Below are positions 1,241 through 8,782 of a stretch of 23,824 nucleotides of DNA, piece after piece (the stretch's first letter is position 1; every line of letters begins with the position of its first letter). A model generated the notes under the pieces. The model had not been told where the DNA came from and searched no databases. It saw only the letters and a program-made list of their open reading frames with translations. The translations under genes were made by a program, and so were the position numbers. Source of the stretch: a virus. The DNA lies in the IMG/VR virus record IMGVR_UViG_3300037963_002975, positions 1 through 23,824 of that record; one strand, written 5' to 3'.

Positions 1241-1434
1241 CCTACTGCTTGTCTAAGCAGCTTTGCCTGATGCCAGTTGGTCCGTACCAAAGACACGCAT
1301 AACGATTTCAGCGCATCTTCATCGCTGCAGTTCCGAACGTCTCGCACATTGCGCTCCAGCTCCAACTCCTCTTCAAGGCTTTGCTCGACGACCATCCAGT
1401 CTGCCCAGCCCATAGCCTTGAAGATTCTTCTCAA
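1198..1434 (-). CDS. hypothetical protein (71-78 aa)
   Basis: The open frame begins at TTG 1434, one base past the dCTP deaminase stop; the first ATG in frame is at 1413 (71 aa, MGWADWMVVEQSLEEELELE). The product has an acidic helical N-half and a predicted helical C-half. No family recognised. It would be the last gene of the leftward cassette and overlaps the ribbon-helix-helix gene on the other strand by 43 nt. Moderate certainty only: it is short, and its neighbours explain most of the coding signal. Confidence 0.42.
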   Translation of the reverse strand: MRRIFKAMGWADWMVVEQSLEEELELERNVRDVRNCSDEDALKSLCVSLVRTNWHQAKLLRQAVGHIGELDASIACSD

Positions 1435-1435
1435 T

Positions 1436-1954
1436 TCATGCCACGGACGGCATGACTGTCAAGTGGTTGTTGTAATGACCAGTCTCTGCATAGCTGTGCA
1501 TTGGAGCGTTAGACATGGCGTGAAACACCATCTGCCCAATCTTCAGACCCGGATACAACGGCAAAGCATGATGCAGTCGCTCATTCTTCAATTCGAGCGT
1601 CAGCTTGCTTCCGTGCCAGCCTGGATCGCACCAGCCAGCAAGCAGGTGATTAAGACCAGATCGTGCGCGGCTTGACTTGAGAACAAATTGGCAGCTGATG
1701 TCGTCGGGCAGGTTAAACAGCTCAAGTGTCTCAGCCAAGCAAAACTCGCCGGACTGAAGCATGAACGGGTCATCCTCTGTCTTATCCGCAATGCTGATAC
1801 GCACCAGGTCAGGGCTATAGATGCTCTCCACCATCAAATAGTCGCCCAGCCTCAAATCCAAACTGGCTGGATTCAACAGCTCTTCATCGAATGGGACGAC
1901 CATCTGGCCTTTTCGGCACCGAGCCGAGATCTCCCAATCGCACAGAACTGCCAT
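1436..1954 (-). CDS. dcd: dCTP deaminase (Dcd/DUT family)
   Basis: A 172-aa protein of the trimeric dCTP deaminase / dUTPase fold. It converts dCTP to dUTP (or directly to dUMP in bifunctional members), feeding dTTP synthesis. Motifs in order: NPASLDLRLGD at 28-38 (the N-terminal family signature), KSSRARSGL at 93-101 aligning with the Arg-Ser-Ser-x-x-Arg active-site loop, and the CDPGWHG/LELKN block at 109-124, where Glu121 aligns with the catalytic Glu of E. coli Dcd. The nucleotide-binding Tyr-x-Asn near the C-terminus is seen as YNN at 161-163. Length is slightly under the usual 180-195. The gene follows a small membrane protein with a 22-nt gap. Whether the product is mono- or bifunctional cannot be told from the sequence alone. 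Confidence 0.88.
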   Translation of the reverse strand: MAVLCDWEISARCRKGQMVVPFDEELLNPASLDLRLGDYLMVESIYSPDLVRISIADKTEDDPFMLQSGEFCLAETLELFNLPDDISCQFVLKSSRARSGLNHLLAGWCDPGWHGSKLTLELKNERLHHALPLYPGLKIGQMVFHAMSNAPMHSYAETGHYNNHLTVMPSVA

Positions 1955-1976
1955 CCCTGCAACGCAAAAACCAATC

Positions 1977-2174
1977 CTACTCAGCTTGTTTCAAAATCTT
2001 CCTTTCGTTGTGATACGCCCCCTTTTGATGCATTTCAGCCACATCTCGAACCCAAGGCACCAACCAATCATTTACCCGTGAACACTGATCCCAGTTCATA
2101 GGCTTGGCGCATTGCACAACAACAGTCGTCCAAAACGCACTGATAAAAGCCCAGACCCAATAAAACTCACTCAT
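1977..2174 (-). CDS. small membrane protein (65 aa)
   Basis: Residues 5-21 form a hydrophobic, aromatic-rich segment (YWVWAFISAFWTTVVVQ), followed by a soluble region of about 43 residues with two Cys (22 and 31). The start ATG at 2174 lies inside the end of the C39-like peptidase gene (8-nt overlap), so it is translated from the same message. The position next to a possible lysis enzyme suggests a membrane or periplasmic accessory role, but no spanin lipobox is present (Cys22 follows Gln) and I cannot name it. Confidence 0.6.
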   Translation of the reverse strand: MSEFYWVWAFISAFWTTVVVQCAKPMNWDQCSRVNDWLVPWVRDVAEMHQKGAYHNERKILKQAE

Positions 2175-2916
2175 TCACAAGGATCACCCAACCAGTCCTA
2201 GGCCCTGAAGCTTGCCAACGCTGATAGAACGCAGCTTGCCTCACGCGGACATTACGCCCCAAATGCGGATTGCTGTGGCCACCCTTCTCCATCTCGGGAT
2301 AGCCACGAGGATCCTGCATGATCCACTCTGGATCGTTGCTGTTCTTGCCCGCATAACCACTGATCACGCTCCAATGACCACAACCCAGGCCATTACACAT
2401 GGGTGGTTCGCCTAAAAGCATGTTGCCTGCGTGCAACCAGCCAACCAACACTGGTCTGCCATTCTCGATCTCTAGCTCCACCATGTCAGCATCACCGTCT
2501 TTACGAAACTCAGCCTGCAAGCCAAGACTCTGCAATGCCTGCAACTGAGCTTCTACTGACGTGGTGTCCCCAAATTTGGAGCGAATCCTGTTGTACTCAT
2601 CATCTGTGCGCACCTTCTTGTAATACGCCGCCACCATGGCAGCCGCTGAGCTGAAACACTCTCGATAGCCTGTTCCTGTCTTGTTATCGAGCTGTCTGAA
2701 GTACGGCATGTAGACCTGTTGGTCATAGCCGCTCTCTTTCCAGGCTTGAAACCAATCAGCGTCGTCTTCCTCCAGTAATTCCTCTGGCATTGACTCCTCA
2801 AGCTGTTTAATTGCAGCCAGCTGGTGGGGCGTACCACGGAAAAACTTAAAAAAGGGAAGCAGCGATAATGGCACCAGCAAGCTAATCAGGATCGCTCTGA
2901 TAATGCCTGCTGGCAA
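2167..2916 (-). CDS. membrane-anchored C39-like cysteine peptidase, possible endolysin
   Basis: The frame is open from ATG 3072, but the first 52 residues are Cys/Arg-rich and lie over two better small genes in other frames, so I place the start at or near TTG 2916. Residues then begin with a hydrophobic anchor (LPAGIIRAILISLLVPLSLL) followed by a linker rich in Glu. The peptidase C39_2-like domain shows a candidate triad: Cys139 (YRECFSSAAAM), His233 (GCGHWSVISGY) and Asp254 (IMQDPRG), numbered from the 3072 start. C39 enzymes cleave peptides; in phages such domains are sometimes annotated as cell-wall hydrolases. A signal-anchored form would resemble a SAR endolysin, but this is inference. 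The TTG at 2880 or GTG at 2874 are alternative starts. Confidence 0.72.
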   Translation of the reverse strand: MPAGIIRAILISLLVPLSLLPFFKFFRGTPHQLAAIKQLEESMPEELLEEDDADWFQAWKESGYDQQVYMPYFRQLDNKTGTGYRECFSSAAAMVAAYYKKVRTDDEYNRIRSKFGDTTSVEAQLQALQSLGLQAEFRKDGDADMVELEIENGRPVLVGWLHAGNMLLGEPPMCNGLGCGHWSVISGYAGKNSNDPEWIMQDPRGYPEMEKGGHSNPHLGRNVRVRQAAFYQRWQASGPRTGWVILVNE

Positions 2917-3032
2917 CTGGACTCGCCAGCGACATATCCGCCGATGAAGATCACTATTGAACCGCAAAGCAAAAGCGTGGCAGCTCCTCCCGCAACGAAC
3001 CAGCCAGTTGCAGAAAATACGGATAGCTTCAC
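2886..3032 (-). CDS. small single-TM protein, lysis-cassette candidate (48 aa)
   Basis: Reading begins at GTG 3032, overlapping the stop of the 57-aa gene (GTGA), and ends TGA at 2886-2888. The product is 48 aa with one strong hydrophobic segment at about residues 8-34 (GWFVAGGAATLLLCGSIVIF) and a short polar C-terminal tail (GESSCQQALSERS). Its end overlaps the probable start of the C39-like peptidase gene, giving a tightly packed trio. It has the size and topology of a small holin, antiholin or membrane regulator, but there is no sequence signature to choose between them. Confidence 0.5.
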   Translation of the reverse strand: MKLSVFSATGWFVAGGAATLLLCGSIVIFIGGYVAGESSCQQALSERS

Positions 3033-3202
3033 TTCTCAACGCGAGTATCAGGCAAAAGCATCTCGCGAACATGCTTTACCGCCAAATCATCTAAGTCGTT
3101 GTCTGTCCTAGTAACAATTTTCTCCAGCATCGCCACGATCAACTCCTTAAACGCCCTTGATTTCCACATGGTCATCAAGATTGGCTTCAGAATTAAAAGC
3201 AT
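3029..3202 (-). CDS. small conserved cyanophage-type protein (57 aa)
   Basis: ATG at 3202, TGA at 3029-3031, 57 aa. The N-terminus is hydrophobic/amphipathic (MLLILKPILMTMWKSRAFKE), followed by helices and a DNDLDDLAVKHVREMLL segment. From memory, small proteins with this layout (hydrophobic start, W-K-S, then T-D-N-x-x-D-D-x-A-V) recur in T4-like cyanophages; a database search would settle this. The stop overlaps the GTG start of the 48-aa membrane protein. It was too short for a simple long-ORF view, and the longer frame through this region (from 3072) is probably the shadow. Confidence 0.65.
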   Translation of the reverse strand: MLLILKPILMTMWKSRAFKELIVAMLEKIVTRTDNDLDDLAVKHVREMLLPDTRVEK

Positions 3203-3229
3203 GAGATTGCCTTGAACGCCACTATTACG

Positions 3230-3481
3230 TTAGTGCCTATCCGTGTGTCCTTCCAGCCGCGCCACTGCACGCTCCAATTCGCTCAATCTGGCGAAAACCT
3301 CCATGTCTTTCGTCTTGATGTCATTATGCAAAATATCCAAACGACCAGAAAGGTTGTCGACAGCAGCCGTTAAACGAATCAGCGAGTCCTGTCCCAAGCG
3401 GCTTTGACGGCTAATCCCTGAAGCGCCTAGGCCTGCAACTGTGATTGACGCGCCAGCAACAGCGGCCCAGACTTCAACCAT
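3230..3481 (-). CDS. N-anchored coiled-coil protein (83 aa), lysis-cassette candidate
   Basis: Residues 4-22 form a small-residue-rich membrane segment (VWAAVAGASITVAGLGASG). Residues 34-80 form heptad-like helix (LIRLTAAVDNLSGRLDILHN, then VFARLSELERAVARLEG). An N-terminal anchor plus periplasmic or cytoplasmic coiled coil is the layout of inner-membrane spanins and of holin-associated proteins, but the length is short for a spanin. It is the first gene of a leftward set that includes the C39-like peptidase; 26 nt separate its start from the divergent plus-strand gene at 3508. Confidence 0.65.
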   Translation of the reverse strand: MVEVWAAVAGASITVAGLGASGISRQSRLGQDSLIRLTAAVDNLSGRLDILHNDIKTKDMEVFARLSELERAVARLEGHTDRH

Positions 3482-3507
3482 GATCCGCCGCTAACACTCG
3501 CTTCATC

Positions 3508-3768
3508 ATGGCAGAGCCAACAGACAAGCAGCAGGACGAATCAAACTCGCGCCTTGGCGATGTCATCAAGGTTGTATTGCTCGGATGGGCAATGGCGATC
3601 CTGACGGCGAATTATCTAGGTGTGTTCAAACAATCACTCGATCCGACTTATCCGGCATCGATTTTGAGCGGAACGGCGGCGTCGTTCGGCTTAGCTGTAG
3701 GGAACAATAGAAAGAAAAAAGAGGAGCCTACAATCAAGCAAGAACCAACGACTGCGAAACCCAAATGA
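3508..3768 (+). CDS. holin-like membrane protein (86 aa)
   Basis: A polar N-terminus of about 17 residues, hydrophobic segment 1 (about 18-40, VIKVVLLGWAMAILTANYLG), a short loop with Pro-Thr-Tyr-Pro, a weaker segment 2 (about 50-66, ASILSGTAASFGLAVGN), then a Lys-rich tail (RKKKEEPTIKQEPTTAKPK). Two segments with a basic cytoplasmic tail match the general plan of class II holins. The sequence also resembles, from memory, a short membrane protein widespread in T4-like cyanophages. It is coupled to the next gene by ATGA. The holin role is a hypothesis based on topology. Confidence 0.6.
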   Translation: MAEPTDKQQDESNSRLGDVIKVVLLGWAMAILTANYLGVFKQSLDPTYPASILSGTAASFGLAVGNNRKKKEEPTIKQEPTTAKPK

Positions 3769-4259
3769 AACAACTCGCTTTCGTGCTGGGTGTGACAGTT
3801 CTAGGCTTGCCCGCCCAGGCCGATATCACGCATAAAATTCAATCAAGCGTTTCACTGTCTGTCGATGGAGCGGGATCAGTCGCAACCCGTATCCCGTCTT
3901 CAATGGCAGTATCTGGCAATAACGTCACTCTGGACACTACTCCTGTGCTGGGGGCACTTACTTCCGGCACTGCTCTTGGGTACACTCCTGGCGCTTACAG
4001 CATCACTACTGCTGGTGACGCATTTTCGTATTCAGAGTCATATACAGAAGGAGACGATGTCCCAAGCCTCCTCTCAACAACAGTCAACACCGGAGTAGTT
4101 CCGGCGCTGCCTGTTTTTGGTAGCACCACAACAACATCTGGAGGAGTCAAGGGTGACTTGGCCGGTACGTTGGCCACTGATGGCGCTCTAACTATTACAG
4201 CTGGCTCAGCAGGCACCACTGCAATTGGCCAAGTAATCCAAGAGCTGACGATCAAGTGA
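3765..4259 (+). CDS. secreted protein of cyanophage type (164 aa)
   Basis: ATG at 3765 overlaps the previous stop (ATGA). A clear signal peptide (KQLAFVLGVTVLGLPAQA, cleavage after Ala19) precedes ADITHKIQSSVSLSVDGA and a Thr/Ser/Gly-rich, beta-prone body without cysteines, charged residues being few. The composition is that of a periplasmic, envelope or virion-surface protein. I recall similar proteins with the ITHKIQSSV start in cyanomyoviruses, always of unknown function. It is the first of three consecutive secreted proteins, each joined by a 4-nt overlap, so a joint role (for example a periplasmic complex) is likely. Confidence 0.72.
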   Translation: MKQLAFVLGVTVLGLPAQADITHKIQSSVSLSVDGAGSVATRIPSSMAVSGNNVTLDTTPVLGALTSGTALGYTPGAYSITTAGDAFSYSESYTEGDDVPSLLSTTVNTGVVPALPVFGSTTTTSGGVKGDLAGTLATDGALTITAGSAGTTAIGQVIQELTIK

Positions 4260-4708
4260 TGTGGACTTCAATCTGGATCGCATACGGCGCTCTTTGCGCC
4301 ATAGCTCTTGCCGCTCCAGAAGCAAAGTCCCTACCTGTCGTACCCAACTTTCAACAGGGCACCCTTAAGTCCACCACGAAGACAACGCAAAAAGTTACTG
4401 AGGTTATCAACTCCTATGAGTATCGGACTGGTTATGAATACACAGCCAGTGGCACTAACGTTGCTCCAGAAAATGGCGTTGTCGCTCCAGACAAACTGAC
4501 GATCACAACCAATAGCCTCAACGGTGTCACCAGCAAATGGACAGGGCTTGATCCAGCAAGTAAGCCAAACTGGCGGATTGTTGAACAGGGTGCATCGTTC
4601 CAATTCGTAGAAACCCTCAGCGGTCCAGGACTGACACAGCACACCGTCATAAACCGCACAACTGACATTGAATCCTTAACGGAGACGCTCAGCACCTTCA
4701 CCCAATGA
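4256..4708 (+). CDS. secreted protein (150 aa), second of a trio
   Basis: Starts at ATG 4256 in a 4-nt overlap with the preceding stop. The N-terminus is a signal sequence (WTSIWIAYGALCAIALA, probable cleavage near residues 19-20). The mature part is Thr/Ser-rich with a YEYRTGYEYTASG patch and a C-terminal DIESLTETLSTF helix. No known domain is recognised. It is bracketed by two other exported proteins in the same coupled chain. Confidence 0.68.
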   Translation: MMWTSIWIAYGALCAIALAAPEAKSLPVVPNFQQGTLKSTTKTTQKVTEVINSYEYRTGYEYTASGTNVAPENGVVAPDKLTITTNSLNGVTSKWTGLDPASKPNWRIVEQGASFQFVETLSGPGLTQHTVINRTTDIESLTETLSTFTQ

Positions 4709-5436
4709 AGCGAGTCATTGCAACGCTTTTGCTGCTAACCGCTCCAGCGCAAGCTCAAGTTTCAAGTACTGCAGCGCCGGTCGCGAATAGCTCAGGCAGC
4801 GTGACTAATCAGGCCGTGCAGGTGGTTCCTAGTCGTCAGTTCACCAATACTTACGGTGGCGGAATCAGCTGCCAAGGTGCAACCTTGAACATAAATCCGT
4901 TTGTTAGTACAACCACCAGCTGGGCAAACCCTTACGAGTCCCACTACAACGAACCCGTCTATGACACTCTCGATCTCATTGGCGCGTTTGATGAGGAAGG
5001 CAATGCCATCCCGGATGGCGTCCCCGATAATCCGGGCAATGTCCTTTTCTATAAACCTATTCGTACAGGGCAAAAAACCAACTTCTCGATTAACGGCGGA
5101 ATCACTGCCACAATTTCGATACCGTTGGATCGCCATCATGTCGAGAGCTGCCGTCGAGCGGCAGAAAAGCAAGTGGCGCTTTTAGACGCTGCTCTCGCAG
5201 ACAAACGCCTTAACTACGAGCTAGCCAGACTCAAAAACTGCGCCGAACTGATGCAAAAAGGCATCATGTTCCACCCAGAATCACCTTACGCCACAATCTG
5301 CGCTGATGTCGTCCTGACTAATCCGCCAGGCGTAGTGCCGCCCCACAAACATTCAATCACTTACGCAAAGCCCGCTGATTCTTCCGACGCTGCGCAACAG
5401 ACTCAACAGGAGTCTGCTTCCCCATCTTCGCCTTGA
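4705..5436 (+). CDS. secreted protein with C-terminal helical domain (243 aa), third of a trio
   Basis: Starts at ATG 4705 (4-nt overlap). Signal peptide KRVIATLLLLTAPAQA with cleavage after Ala17, then a VTNQAVQVVPSRQFTN segment and a GGGISCQGATLNINPF patch. Residues about 75-115 hold a Gly/Asp/Pro-rich FDEEGNAIPDGVPDNPGN loop. From about 145 comes a long helix (CRRAAEKQVALLDAALADKR) with Cys residues at about 55, 149, 178 and 199 that could form disulfides. The tail is low complexity. From memory this type is shared with T4-like cyanophages and lacks an assigned function. The 3' end overlaps the convergent gene at 5357-6031 by 80 nt. Confidence 0.72.
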   Translation: MKRVIATLLLLTAPAQAQVSSTAAPVANSSGSVTNQAVQVVPSRQFTNTYGGGISCQGATLNINPFVSTTTSWANPYESHYNEPVYDTLDLIGAFDEEGNAIPDGVPDNPGNVLFYKPIRTGQKTNFSINGGITATISIPLDRHHVESCRRAAEKQVALLDAALADKRLNYELARLKNCAELMQKGIMFHPESPYATICADVVLTNPPGVVPPHKHSITYAKPADSSDAAQQTQQESASPSSP

Positions 5437-6031
5437 TTTTCTTGATCACCTTTTTGACTGTTGGCTTGACGGCCTTAAGCAGAAAATCGCCTAACGGTTT
5501 CGCGAAAATGGCGCTAGTCGTTGCAACAGCCGCAATCGTCGCAGTCGTCACCACGACAGGCGTACCAGGTAGATAGTTGCTGATGATCGTTGGTATTCCC
5601 AGCGGCTCATAGATTGCCTCGCACTTGCCCTCAACAGTTCTCTTGTAACCAATAATGACCGCAGTTTGCGATTTGTTCTTGGCTCCTAAAGGAATTGCGT
5701 CAGGTGGCGGACATGGCAGTTCTGTCGCTATTTTTGATATGTCGAGGGGGCTTCTCGGCGGTTTGGATACCTTGTCCGGCTGTTTCGACTCAGCCGGCTT
5801 TTCTTCTGCATCAGTCTTAGGAGCTGGTGCTGCTTTGTGTGAATGCTTGCTTGGCGTAAAGTTCAGCGGCTCATAATGTGGCATCTCCCCACCGGGCATG
5901 TCAGCCACAGGGAAACCAAGCATCAACGTGATTGGTGGTTCGGCTGGCAATACTGGCGGTGGAATAATCTCCCGCGCCGCGATCCTTGGCACGCCTACCG
6001 TTCCAACACCAATCCTCTGAATCTCTGGCAT
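5357..6031 (-). CDS. Pro-rich membrane protein of cyanophage type (224 aa)
   Basis: The N-terminal half (1-105) is rich in Pro, Lys and Glu and probably disordered. A CPPPDAIPLGAKNKSQTAVI motif at about 107-126 and a YKRTVEGKCEAIYEPLG stretch follow, with two Cys that may pair. A hydrophobic segment at about 155-178 (PVVVTTATIAAVATTSAIFA) is followed by a very basic tail (KKVIKKIKAKMGKQ and RRKNQRALRK). A single-pass protein with a large N-terminal domain and a short basic end is the simplest topology, so the N-half would lie outside the cytoplasm. I recall proteins with the same C-P-P-P-D-A-I-P block in cyanomyoviruses beside the secreted trio. Start ATG 6031 overlaps, on the opposite strand, the ATG of the next gene. 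Confidence 0.68.
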   Translation of the reverse strand: MPEIQRIGVGTVGVPRIAAREIIPPPVLPAEPPITLMLGFPVADMPGGEMPHYEPLNFTPSKHSHKAAPAPKTDAEEKPAESKQPDKVSKPPRSPLDISKIATELPCPPPDAIPLGAKNKSQTAVIIGYKRTVEGKCEAIYEPLGIPTIISNYLPGTPVVVTTATIAAVATTSAIFAKPLGDFLLKAVKPTVKKVIKKIKAKMGKQTPVESVAQRRKNQRALRK

Positions 6032-6344
6032 GAAATCAGAACGGTTTACAGCAGGTCAGCTCTGGATTGAAAGGAACCGCAGAAGAGAAGGGCCTCCCAT
6101 TGTCTACACCGTAATGCTGGGCAAAACAGCAAGGCTGTTTACTGATACGAAAGCCATCCTGCGGTTTGTGAAATGGCCGAAAAGCACACCAACTGGTGAT
6201 GCCTTACGCGAATGGCTTGCATCCTTTGAGCAAAAACCACAAGCACCCGCGCCAGAATTGGATATGGCAAAAATCAAGGCGGAAGGCTTCGGACCTGAAG
6301 CTCATGACGACGACCCAACCGCCAACACCAAGATGGTGACCTGA
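6030..6344 (+). CDS. hypothetical soluble protein (104 aa)
   Basis: Residues 1-62 look like a small alpha/beta domain (MKSERFTAGQLWIERNRRRE, then VYTVMLGKTARLFTDTKAIL). Residues 68-104 are Pro/Ala/Asp-rich and probably flexible. No family recognised. The ATG at 6030 shares bases with the oppositely oriented ATG at 6031 (CATG). It runs toward a promoter-like site and structured non-coding region. Confidence 0.6.
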   Translation: MKSERFTAGQLWIERNRRREGPPIVYTVMLGKTARLFTDTKAILRFVKWPKSTPTGDALREWLASFEQKPQAPAPELDMAKIKAEGFGPEAHDDDPTANTKMVT

Positions 6345-6353
6345 TTTTTCCTG

Positions 6354-6362
6354 TGCTATAAA
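6354..6362 (+). promoter_or_regulatory. candidate extended -10 promoter
   Basis: The bases TGCTATAAA match the extended -10 form TGn-TATAAT with five of six -10 positions. A weak -35 (GTGACC, 6336-6341) lies 15 nt upstream. Transcription would start near 6369-6371, inside the non-coding stretch. There is no gene on the plus strand before 6483, so the product would be an untranslated RNA. Confidence 0.38.
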
Positions 6363-6368
6363 AGCCAG

Positions 6369-6480
6369 GTAGGGACTCGGATCAGTGGGTCAGCGTACCC
6401 CCCGACTCCCACCCACCCCGAATCATCATCGGGTTTGGCCTGATTAGCCCTTGAGAACCTCCGGTGCGCCGGGGGTTTTC
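6369..6480 (+). ncRNA. candidate structured small RNA (about 110 nt)
   Basis: This is the largest gap between genes (6345-6485). After the promoter-like site come three hairpins. GGGACTCGG (6372-6380) can pair with CCGACTCCC (6402-6410) with one C:C mismatch, enclosing GGGT/ACCC (6387-6390 and 6397-6400). CCCGA (6417-6421) pairs with TCGGG (6429-6433). The last is the terminator stem at 6457-6476. Self-contained promoter, folded body and terminator are the plan of a small RNA gene. It could instead be only the 3' untranslated region of the gene ending at 6344. I could not match it to a known cyanobacterial or cyanophage RNA family. Confidence 0.35.
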
Positions 6481-6483
6481 TTG
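6454..6483 (+). terminator. rho-independent terminator
   Basis: ACCTCCGG (6457-6464) pairs with CCGGGGGT (6469-6476) with one G-T wobble around a TGCG loop, followed by TTTTCTTGTG. The stem can extend by A-T pairs on its base. The T-run follows only in the plus direction, so it ends plus-strand transcription from 6030-6344 or from the candidate small RNA. Confidence 0.75.
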
Positions 6484-6485
6484 TG

Positions 6486-6719
6486 TCAAGGCAGCTTAAA
6501 AGGCACAGCTGGACCCGTAGTTGTCGGCAGTTCTGACAGCGCCTCATCAATCTGCCCAGGCATCATGTCCGTGACCATCTTGGTCAGCTCAGACTTCAAC
6601 TCGCTCATGTAATGCTTGGTCAGTGATGGGATGCGTGTGTAAAACACCACCGTTCCAATGACCATCGTTCCAGACATCACAAAGGATGCGACGGACATTG
6701 CGTTAAAAAGCTTTTGCAT
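6486..6719 (-). CDS. small single-TM protein (77 aa)
   Basis: Residues 9-28 form a membrane segment (SVASFVMSGTMVIGTVVFYT), followed by an amphipathic helix (LTKHYMSELKSELTKMVTDM) and a polar end with PGQIDEALSELP. From memory, T4-like cyanophages carry related short proteins with the same K-L-x-N-A start, N-terminal anchor and helical tail. Function unknown. It starts only 14 nt after the T-rich end of the terminator at 6733-6771, so it probably depends on readthrough or a promoter I cannot see. Confidence 0.62.
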   Translation of the reverse strand: MQKLFNAMSVASFVMSGTMVIGTVVFYTRIPSLTKHYMSELKSELTKMVTDMMPGQIDEALSELPTTTGPAVPFKLP

Positions 6720-6732
6720 GAGAACTGCAGAT

Positions 6733-6771
6733 AAAACAAAAGGCCCCCGCTCTACGCTGCGGAGACCCTTT
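6733..6771 (-). terminator. strong rho-independent terminator (minus strand)
   Basis: Read on the minus strand, a 13-pair stem (AAAGGGTCTCCGC with GCGGGGGCCTTTT, including G-T wobbles) with an AGCGTAGA loop is followed by TTTTGTTTTAT. It sits 35 nt after the stop of the beta-barrel-like gene and is the only strong leftward terminator between that gene and the tail module, so it probably ends the late transcript. Confidence 0.8.
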
Positions 6772-6805
6772 GCCGACCTGTGTGAGAAGTCGAGCTAGTT
6801 ATAGC

Positions 6806-7165
6806 TCAGAACTTGTACTTCAGGCCTGCCTTCAGCCCATAGTTGGCATCGCCGTCTTCGTACTTGGCAAAAGAAACCTCACCGTACACATCAAGCGGGT
6901 CTGCCACAGGCGCTGACACACCAGTCTTGGCCGAGAAGCCAACAGTGGTGTCACCAGCGTCAGGCTGCAGCCAGGAAGGTCCGCCCTGCAGGTAGAACGC
7001 TCCAGCCTCATATCCCACGTGACCGTCAAAAACAGCCCCGCCAAAATCAGAGCCTGTCCAGCCACCGTTCCATTCAGGATTCAGGTAAAAACCGTCGGCT
7101 TGTGCAGGAGATGCCAGCACAGACGCCGTAACGACGGCACCACTCGCAATCAAAGCTTTGATCAT
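6806..7165 (-). CDS. small secreted beta-barrel-like outer membrane protein (119 aa)
   Basis: A signal peptide (IKALIASGAVVTASVLASPA, cleavage after AQA at residue 23) is followed by about 96 residues of alternating beta-prone segments: NPEWNGGWTGSDFGGAVFDG, HVGYEAGAFYLQGGPSWLQ, VGFSAKTGVSAPV, LDVYGEVSFAKYE and NYGLKAGLKYKF. The terminal aromatic Phe is the usual outer-membrane insertion signature. The length suits a small barrel with few strands. Phage-encoded outer membrane proteins can alter receptors or exclude other phages; here that is inference. From memory, related small porin-like proteins occur in cyanomyoviruses. It lies 11 nt after the 41-aa gene. Confidence 0.75.
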   Translation of the reverse strand: MIKALIASGAVVTASVLASPAQADGFYLNPEWNGGWTGSDFGGAVFDGHVGYEAGAFYLQGGPSWLQPDAGDTTVGFSAKTGVSAPVADPLDVYGEVSFAKYEDGDANYGLKAGLKYKF

Positions 7166-7176
7166 TTGGAAGAGAA

Positions 7177-7302
7177 TTAACGTTTTCCTTGACCACGATA
7201 CTTCTTTCGTCCATGGGACGGTTTTGAATGTGATCCATTGCCTTGACGTGTCTTTTTAGGCTTGCTAGGAACAAAATTTTGCCCGCTAAGTGACTTAGCC
7301 AT
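7177..7302 (-). CDS. small basic protein MAKSLSG family (41 aa)
   Basis: ATG 7302, TAA 7177-7179, 41 aa: MAKSLSGQNFVPSKPKKTRQ then a Gly/Ser/His/Lys/Arg-rich end with KKYRGQGKR. The start overlaps the preceding stop by one base (TGATG). From memory, T4-like cyanophages carry a nearly identical small basic protein with the same K-S-L-S-G-x-N-F-V and K-K-Y-R-G-Q-G ends. It is likely to bind nucleic acid or ribosomes, but no function is established. A longer frame on this strand (7074-7274) overlaps it and the signal peptide of the next gene and is rejected. Confidence 0.72.
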   Translation of the reverse strand: MAKSLSGQNFVPSKPKKTRQGNGSHSKPSHGRKKYRGQGKR

Positions 7303-7481
7303 CAGCCACGAAACTGTTGATACTTCTTGGCCAGACCTGTAAACAAACCATGCATCGGATGATCAGGATCATCACGACGGTCAAATACATACAGCTCGCT
7401 TAACCATCTTTGGCGATTAGCCATTGCCTCAACATCCTCCGCGCCAGGCTTGCAGGGAATCATTGGATCAGGTCGTTGCAT
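7302..7481 (-). CDS. small conserved cyanophage-type protein (59 aa)
   Basis: I choose ATG 7481 over TTG 7487 because only two residues are gained by the latter. The protein contains PCKPGAEDVEAMANRQRWLS and a RRDDPDHPMHGLFTGLAKKY block. From memory, short proteins with R-D-D-P-D-H-P-x-H are frequent in T4-like cyanophages, function unknown. Its stop is fused to the start of the 41-aa gene (TGATG), so the two are coupled. It follows the propeller fibre by 24 nt. Confidence 0.68.
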   Translation of the reverse strand: MQRPDPMIPCKPGAEDVEAMANRQRWLSELYVFDRRDDPDHPMHGLFTGLAKKYQQFRG

Positions 7482-7505
7482 CAACAATCGGCAATATGAA
7501 CCATC

Positions 7506-8363
7506 TTAGGACCGACTGAACTGGTCGACACCGTCACCGACTGCTCCGCCAACATAAATATGCTTTCCATCAGAAGAAAAACAAATTGCATTTGGGGTAG
7601 TTTCGTAGCTCGATATGCTCAAAAAGCTGTCTTCAGAGCCGTTGATTAGTGACACGTCCCAAGCTGTTGATAGATCAAAGTGATAAATGCGATCTTGACC
7701 GGCGCCAAGAATATAGGCTTTTGTGCCGTCATCGCTCATCCAATAGCCTCTTGAATTAGATTCGTTAATGGTGCTGCTTATATCTAACAACGAACTTGTC
7801 GAAACCACACTTCCAATCGTTGATATGTCCCAAGCTGTGGTCAGATTGAACCCTTTAACCCTGTCTATATTTGGATCAATTCCAAAAAATTTCGTGCCGT
7901 CAGGTGAGAAATACGGACCCCTAAAAAGGTTGAAAGGGCCTGTAAGGCTTTTCGAGCCGTCACTGCTTATTGTTGAAATGTCCCAAGCAGTCGACAGGCT
8001 GTAGGCATAGAGAGTGTCGTCGTTGTCGGTGATGAACAGCTTCGTGCCGTCAGGCTTGAAAAATATGCCCGTGGGGAGGCTGTTGCCCCCGTGATGGGAC
8101 GTGATGTTGACGGTGTTAACAGCACTGCCATGCGTGCTTATATTAAAAGCTGTACTTAAATTCATTTCTTTCAACAAAACGCCGGCTAAGTGATAAAACT
8201 TAGTTCCGTCAGGATGAATAAAAACGCCAGTTACGTTGACGCCAGCAGCGTTCATTGTGTCAAAACGAACGTGGCTGTACTGATCAACATCCTTATAAAC
8301 AACACCCTCCTCTGACGAAGTGTTGCCCACAGCCGCCATTAGATATTTTGCAAAATTACTCAT
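7506..8363 (-). CDS. beta-propeller fibre/adhesin (285 aa)
   Basis: I start at ATG 8363 (MSNFAKYLMA), where it overlaps the previous stop as ATGA; an earlier ATG at 8411 lies inside the upstream gene and adds a Cys-rich peptide. The protein is made of about five repeats of roughly 50 residues with F-x-P-D-G-T-K at 50-55, 103-108, 152-157, 209-214 and (degenerate) 262-266, each followed by a strand and LSTAWDIST at 69-77, 123-131, 174-182 and 231-237. This is a beta-propeller pattern, with residues V26-S30 (VDQYS) and the C-terminal VDQFS likely to close the ring. As the last of the fibre genes it is a good candidate for receptor or polysaccharide binding. No catalytic motif is seen. Confidence 0.72.
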   Translation of the reverse strand: MSNFAKYLMAAVGNTSSEEGVVYKDVDQYSHVRFDTMNAAGVNVTGVFIHPDGTKFYHLAGVLLKEMNLSTAFNISTHGSAVNTVNITSHHGGNSLPTGIFFKPDGTKLFITDNDDTLYAYSLSTAWDISTISSDGSKSLTGPFNLFRGPYFSPDGTKFFGIDPNIDRVKGFNLTTAWDISTIGSVVSTSSLLDISSTINESNSRGYWMSDDGTKAYILGAGQDRIYHFDLSTAWDVSLINGSEDSFLSISSYETTPNAICFSSDGKHIYVGGAVGDGVDQFSRS

Positions 8364-8782
8364 GCAACATCCCCTACATGCGCACCATAAAGAGTGCTCA
8401 AAAACTTCCACAACACAACAACGGTATAACCACTTGTGGCTAGCGTTGGTGCAGAGCCTCCTGTCCAGGTAACGCTTGGCCAGGTCACTGTGTACGCAGA
8501 ACCGTCATCAATATGTAAAATCATGGCCTCCCCTGCCGTAAATGAATCCGTGAAAGTTGTATTGGACCCGAGTGTTTTGTATTGCACTGCCCCATTGGCT
8601 GGGTCAAGCGCCGTTCCAGTTAAGTTGTAGACCGTATCTGTGAGGCCAACCTCAATTAGCGAACCGCCGTCAGTCTTAGTAAAAACGCCGCCGTCCGTTG
8701 TATTTAAAGCAAGTTCTCCGACAACAAGATCGCTGGTTGTTGGATTGGTAGTTCCACGCTTTTGTTTAATGACGTTCGCCAT
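8360..8782 (-). CDS. tail fibre/tip protein with tropism-determinant-like N-terminus (140 aa)
   Basis: The N-terminus (MANVIKQKRGTTNPTTSDLV, then GELALNTTDGGVFTKTDGG) matches the short repeat-like start common in phage tail fibres and major tropism determinant N-terminal domains, where it mounts the protein on the tail. The C-half (about 55-140) is beta-rich with YTVTWPSVTWTGG and VVLWKFLSTLYGAHV. It overlaps the previous gene as TAATG and the next as ATGA. A short fibre or adaptor is the best reading. Confidence 0.75.
   Translation of the reverse strand: MANVIKQKRGTTNPTTSDLVVGELALNTTDGGVFTKTDGGSLIEVGLTDTVYNLTGTALDPANGAVQYKTLGSNTTFTDSFTAGEAMILHIDDGSAYTVTWPSVTWTGGSAPTLATSGYTVVVLWKFLSTLYGAHVGDVA

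Follow-up and report, generated by a model that had tools for sequence, protein, structure and literature searches.

Three kinds of virus that are unrelated to one another but all infect ocean cyanobacteria share a picocyanophage cassette of about six secreted and membrane genes in nearly the same order, and we favour for it a role as a late-expressed, envelope-breaching accessory of lysis and egress, a reading to which we give an even chance. The cyanomyovirus form was already described in 2010, as a cluster of T4-GCs 218, 219, 234, 235 and 237 plus a ‘plasmid stability’ gene that was reported in all the cyanophages studied except S-PM2 and was considered mobile (Sullivan et al., 2010; PMC3037559). 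New here are the functional clues suggested by adjacency to an endolysin, by the slot occupied in podovirus P-SSP7, by late promoters in myoviruses and by coverage of phages that seem to lack spanins.

The cassette was studied in a 23.8-kb virus fragment (the window, meaning the whole 23,824-nucleotide stretch analysed), whose nearest isolate DNA is that of Synechococcus phage S-H1 (73%, tail genes only), with gene families named by PHROG and Pfam profile matches. The window's tail module matches gpJ (phrog_31, 3e-149), phrog_32, phrog_30, phrog_18 and a tape measure, and its gpJ, I, K, L, M and tape measure stand in lambda-like order, as expected of the lambda-like siphovirus tail recognized in a preliminary description of this DNA. 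A run of small genes (1977-7487; Table 1) opens on the minus strand with h65, LYS, h57 and h83, continues on the plus strand with A161, B564, C650 and D165, and returns to the minus strand for E164, m77, OMP, b41 and x61; the genes lie where that description placed them, with matches to large families far beyond chance. Within a longer reading frame that extends to 3072, LYS probably starts at a TTG at 2916, since homology among its kin begins at the hydrophobic segment (a conserved N-terminal anchor) just after the h57 stop; x61, a 61-aa reading frame, also begins with TTG. The accessory s48 was rejected as a core gene because it is present in five loci only, tblastn having found kin at the same position solely in L016, L032, L041 and L042, and in a profile search of the loci x104 was limited to the window lineage and S-CBS3 and absent from myoviruses. 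Upstream of the lysis region, two ribbon-helix-helix-like proteins (87 and 99 aa) enclose two unknown ORFs (174-1240) in an order kept in window-lineage phages, and a dCTP deaminase gene (1436-1954), missing from part of the lineage, adjoins the lysis genes. A 301-aa protein with weak beta-propeller repeats (7506-8411) lies among the fibre genes, with a similar protein only in L060 among the loci compared.

Table 1. Features of the small-gene run and its accessory reading frames (window coordinates)
Feature	Position	Strand	Description	Matches and remarks
LYS	2167..2916	-	C39/C70-like peptidase endolysin, N-terminal hydrophobic anchor	phrog_10051 endolysin 1.7e-59; PF13529/PF12385 above cut-off
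s48	2886..3032	-	accessory 48-aa single-TM ORF between h57 and endolysin	GTG start overlaps h57 stop
h57	3029..3202	-	57-aa protein	phrog_2738 2.5e-18
h83	3230..3481	-	N-terminal hydrophobic segment and likely coiled coil	phrog_26178
A161	3508..3768	+	DUF6450, holin-like; T4-GC 218 / Syn9 gp161	phrog_721 7e-16; Pfam PF20048 4e-13
B564	3765..4259	+	secreted beta-rich protein; T4-GC 237 / Syn9 gp167	phrog_564 8e-39
C650	4256..4708	+	secreted DUF6322; T4-GC 236 / Syn9 gp166	phrog_650 3e-46; PF19847 3e-34
D165	4705..5436	+	secreted protein; T4-GC 235 / Syn9 gp165	phrog_848 4e-91
E164	5357..6031	-	Pro-rich, one C-terminal TM; T4-GC 234 / Syn9 gp164	phrog_570 2e-42
x104	6030..6344	+	accessory gene in some window-lineage phages	phrog_37139
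m77	6486..6719	-	small single-TM protein; T4-GC 414 / Syn9 gp162	phrog_568 1.6e-15
OMP	6806..7165	-	beta-barrel of the outer membrane, signal peptide; related to DUF680 / PhCOG173	phrog_417 7e-29; PF24653 7e-31
b41	7177..7302	-	small basic protein	phrog_516 1e-12
x61	7302..7487	-	small protein, window lineage only	no PHROG match

Homologues are numerous, with tblastn finding phage records, all cyanophage or marine, for D165 (444), OMP (453), A161 (418), b41 (328) and h57 (72). Eighteen ‘cellular’ contigs with homologues, all MAGs, single cells or draft assemblies from marine samples, are read as viral contigs, and sequence resembling a cyanomyovirus in the assembly of a bacterial isolate (L495; Nonlabens xiamenensis NZ_RMVE01000006, a 188-kb contig) is probably contamination. 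Profiles trained solely on the window's own siphovirus lineage (80 IMG/VR loci) and then searched in other loci matched D165 at 2e-93 in Oinezvirus-type podoviruses, 3e-87 in myoviruses, 1e-25 in the MED4-184-type siphovirus lineage (S2) and 6e-23 in P-SSP7-type podoviruses (P). The core cassette, A161-B564-C650-D165 on one strand converging on E164-m77 on the other, recurs in this order in the MED4-184 siphovirus lineage (45 loci, also with h57) and, together with OMP, in uncultured Oinezvirus-type T7-like podoviruses. T4-like Kyanoviridae have the order B, C, D, E, m77, A161, with A161 on the other arm; S-TIM5 retains a partial cassette (B, C, D, E), and T7-like relatives of P-SSP7 and P-SSP10 carry a partial, single-strand version with an E164-like gene, A161, C650, D165 and h57. 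The convergent overlap of D165 and E164 (80 nt in the window) is present in all 77 window-lineage loci, 74 of 76 myovirus loci and 7 of 7 Oinezvirus-type loci. In P-SSM2, P-SSM7, S-SM2 and S-SSM7 the reading frame that contains D165 is longer (411-462 aa), and the match to it is broken about halfway along.

The preliminary description had seen here about a dozen genes typical of cyanomyoviruses, set in a siphovirus. Eight of them (A161, B564, C650, D165, E164, m77, OMP and b41) do have cyanomyovirus homologues, whereas h83, the endolysin and x61 fall outside the myovirus set, and h57, although found in a few myoviruses, is mainly a gene of siphoviruses and T7-like podoviruses, in which it lies directly upstream of the small terminase gene (profile matches 4e-24 in a podovirus and 1e-20 in the MED4-184-type lineage). 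The unit itself comprises some six genes (A161, B564, C650, D165, E164 and m77) rather than a dozen: OMP has myovirus homologues but is only sometimes adjacent there, and b41, also shared with cyanomyoviruses, is some 80 kb away from the cassette in those where both positions were seen. Matches are not confined to siphoviruses, homologues being found in cyanomyoviruses, where they are clustered, and in podoviruses; because T7-like podoviruses carry the cassette too, it is better regarded as a picocyanophage cassette than as a T4-like set in a siphovirus. Since unrelated tail types with the same hosts share its order, a common function is likely, as had been supposed.

A multi-gene, envelope-directed unit is thus shared in conserved order; the further idea that the genes move between phage types is true only over long time. 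Trees of D165, E164, B564 and C650 agree that each phage lineage is its own coherent clade; they join the window lineage with Oinezvirus-type podoviruses (support 98/98, 100, 92 and 73), placing the window's nearest kin outside its own lineage among podoviruses and not myoviruses, and the two siphovirus lineages with the cassette do not group together. The simplest reading of these trees is that the cassette was passed on whole on a few occasions in the distant past; frequent recent exchange was rejected, as the trees give it no support. Among window-lineage phages, divergent alleles of A161, B564 and OMP replace one another. In podovirus P-SSP10, an OMP gene beside psbA and hli (L168:17290-17595) is nested among myovirus OMPs, likely a single-gene transfer from myovirus to podovirus.

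Genomic context provides the first functional clue. The endolysin adjoins the cassette in every one of the 47 window-lineage loci whose sequence reaches 2.6 kb or more beyond the start of B564, accompanied by h57 in 43 and by h83 in 32; no such adjacency to a known endolysin is seen in myoviruses, where the cassette sits between regA and hsp20. In siphovirus relatives without the cassette (L154, L155) the tail fibre gene is followed by h83 and then directly by the endolysin, and D165 is absent from the whole 39,980-bp record behind L155 as well as from the 49-kb record behind L108. Other cassette-less siphoviruses (S-CBS3, 2e-27; L125) likewise have h83 beside the endolysin, and because such relatives keep this pair the cassette is dispensable in some phages. 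In P-SSP7, fibre genes are followed by the E164-like gene, A161, C650, D165, h57 and the small terminase gene. T7 has its holin gene 17.5 at the matching position, and the P-SSP7 cassette thus occupies the T7 holin slot.

A second clue comes from the myoviruses. Of 104 distinct sequences preceding B564, 88 carry the late-promoter motif [CA]TAAATA no more than 70 nt ahead of the gene (5.9 expected), and for A161 the figure is 80 of 95 (4.7 expected); the motif is nearly absent ahead of internal cassette genes, and is found also ahead of Syn9 genes 18, 19 and 20. With this T4-type motif at the heads of both arms, the arms are probably late operons; in siphoviruses and podoviruses the motif was looked for and was not enriched, as expected. 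Late promoters, and the fibre genes that adjoin the cassette in the window, would also suit virion components, for example proteins that decorate the surface or are delivered at entry. We consider this improbable, because proteins assembled in the cytoplasm do not usually have cleavable Sec signals such as those predicted for B, C and D, because the S-TIM5 record labels neighbouring genes virion structural but B, C, D and E hypothetical, and because Sullivan et al. call the cluster hypothetical in a paper that includes S-SM1 virion proteomics (PMC3037559).

The proteins themselves look directed to the envelope. By eye, signal peptides are apparent on B564 (ending AQA), C650, D165 and OMP; A161 has a strong hydrophobic segment, a second that is weaker and a basic tail, C650 has long Thr-rich beta strands and, from conserved columns, an invariant C-terminal F-x-Q, and D165 has four invariant Cys and a long C-terminal helix. 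E164 combines a Pro-rich N-terminal region, two Cys pairs in most lineages (none in podoviruses), a single C-terminal membrane segment and a basic tail; as it has no signal peptide, its topology is uncertain. The window's version of E164, like those of L038 and L083, lacks about 28 residues bearing the first conserved Cys pair. OMP, noted earlier as beta-barrel-like, matches the full profile of PF24653 (‘Cyanophage outer membrane protein’, Phage_OMP) at 107.5 bits against a cut-off of 27. No ORF with a lipobox, and thus no spanin-type outer-membrane lipoprotein, was found in a scan of both strands of window 1400-8000, and h83, with its hydrophobic N-terminus and a likely coiled coil recognized by eye, has no partner lipoprotein. 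Profiles of D165, C650, B564 and E164 matched solved-structure sequences only at chance level, AlphaFold models were moderate for C650 (pLDDT 82, pTM 0.41) and poor for D165 (65), Foldseek against the PDB returned no significant match, and none of these searches found a structure or fold match favouring a membrane-active function. Pore-forming-toxin stems came near the top of the Foldseek list for C650 (best 0.04, TM below 0.25) but carry no weight here, and strand alternation was not amphipathic.

Signal peptides, a beta-barrel and Cys pairs, all confined to phages with common hosts, might instead serve a late remodelling of the envelope without lysis, through superinfection exclusion, receptor masking or prevention of virion re-adsorption to debris, and the allele swapping in the window lineage would suit such competition. 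We rank this next but think it rather unlikely, since late promoters in myoviruses fit superinfection exclusion poorly; the unbroken linkage to the endolysin among window-lineage phages also speaks against it, as does the podovirus arrangement with fibre genes on one side and the small terminase gene on the other. For the favoured role in lysis and egress, we infer the functional steps from position, promoter motif and sequence features; this holds for export and topology, for late timing in the siphoviruses and podoviruses, and for a role at the outer membrane. A161, joined in siphoviruses by h57 and h83, would work on the inner membrane while the anchored endolysin cut the wall, and the Sec pathway would take B564, C650 and D165 to the periplasm or outer membrane. 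E164, Pro-rich with one C-terminal anchor (predicted N-out, C-in), would span the periplasm; together with D165/C650, and with the OMP barrel in phages that have one, it might disrupt the outer membrane as a substitute for Rz/Rz1 spanins. A few old transfers would have brought the cassette into the different phage types.

A 2018 survey tabulated some twenty marine picocyanophages in which no spanins were found, among them P-SSP7, Syn9, S-SM1 and P-SSM2, suggested that their hosts have fragile membranes, and pointed out that an N-out/C-in protein with a C-terminal TMD, or an OMP, could act as spanins (Kongari et al.; PMC6139136). Fifteen of the 20 that could be checked have cassette or marker genes: by profile, D165, E164 and C650 occur in 11 (P-SSM2, P-SSM4, P-SSM7, P-HM1, S-SM1, S-SM2, S-SSM7, Syn1, Syn33, Syn9 and P-SSP7), and four are counted on one marker each (D165 in S-SSM5, Syn19 and S-RSM4; A161 in S-ShM2). 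As the markers were not found by profile in the other five (S-PM2, P60, Syn5, S-CBS4 and P-SS2), the cassette cannot be a universal solution. A bolder reading, to which we give less than an even chance, is that it is a new kind of machine for disrupting the outer membrane without a lipoprotein, built of an N-out Pro-rich anchor with secreted Cys-rich and beta-rich partners, and exchanged among many picocyanophages of the ‘spanin-less’ group, whichever of the three tail types they have; if true, it would fill part of a gap in the account of how lysis ends in the phototrophs that are most abundant in the ocean. The cassette, endolysin-adjacent in siphoviruses, in the lysis slot in podoviruses, behind probable late promoters in myoviruses and present in most spanin-less phages checked, makes directly testable the question of how phages of marine Synechococcus and Prochlorococcus open the outer membrane.

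Among known systems, the T7 lysis slot (17.5 holin, 18.5/18.7 spanins) resembles P-SSP7 in that the cassette and h57 lie between the fibre and small-terminase genes, but the cassette proteins are unrelated to those of T7 and include extra secreted proteins. With two-component spanins (Rz/Rz1) the cassette shares the proposed disruption of the outer membrane and a Pro-rich periplasmic protein beside lysis genes, whereas it has another topology, no sequence kinship and no lipoprotein partner that we could find. The window's OMP is a member of the PF24653 Phage_OMP / DUF680 / PhCOG173 family and is linked to m77 and E164, whereas the OMP of S-SM1 and S-H68 adjoins pstS; the latter placement would suit an auxiliary part in metabolism or stress, for example the uptake of nutrients by an OMP porin under phosphate stress, which we think very improbable for the cassette because it fits OMP only, the A-E genes having no metabolic neighbour in siphoviruses or podoviruses. 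Closest is the Sullivan et al. cluster, annotated in S-SM1 as T4-GCs 218, 414, 219, 234, 235, 236 and 237, whose convergent layout the window shares, with homologues of 218, 234, 235, 236 and 237 clustered and 414 associated. T4-GC 219, between m77 and E164, is myovirus-only among the loci compared (no tblastn match in the window or in window-lineage, MED4-184-type or podovirus loci). The 414 family (m77) carries the ‘plasmid stability’ annotation in cyanophages, an assignment we rejected (no Pfam match, no significant NCBIfam match), and because m77 looks like a small membrane protein we question whether it causes the mobility of the cluster. The window differs from that cluster in that A161 heads the B-C-D arm, lysis genes adjoin the cassette, and the genome is that of a lambda-like siphovirus.
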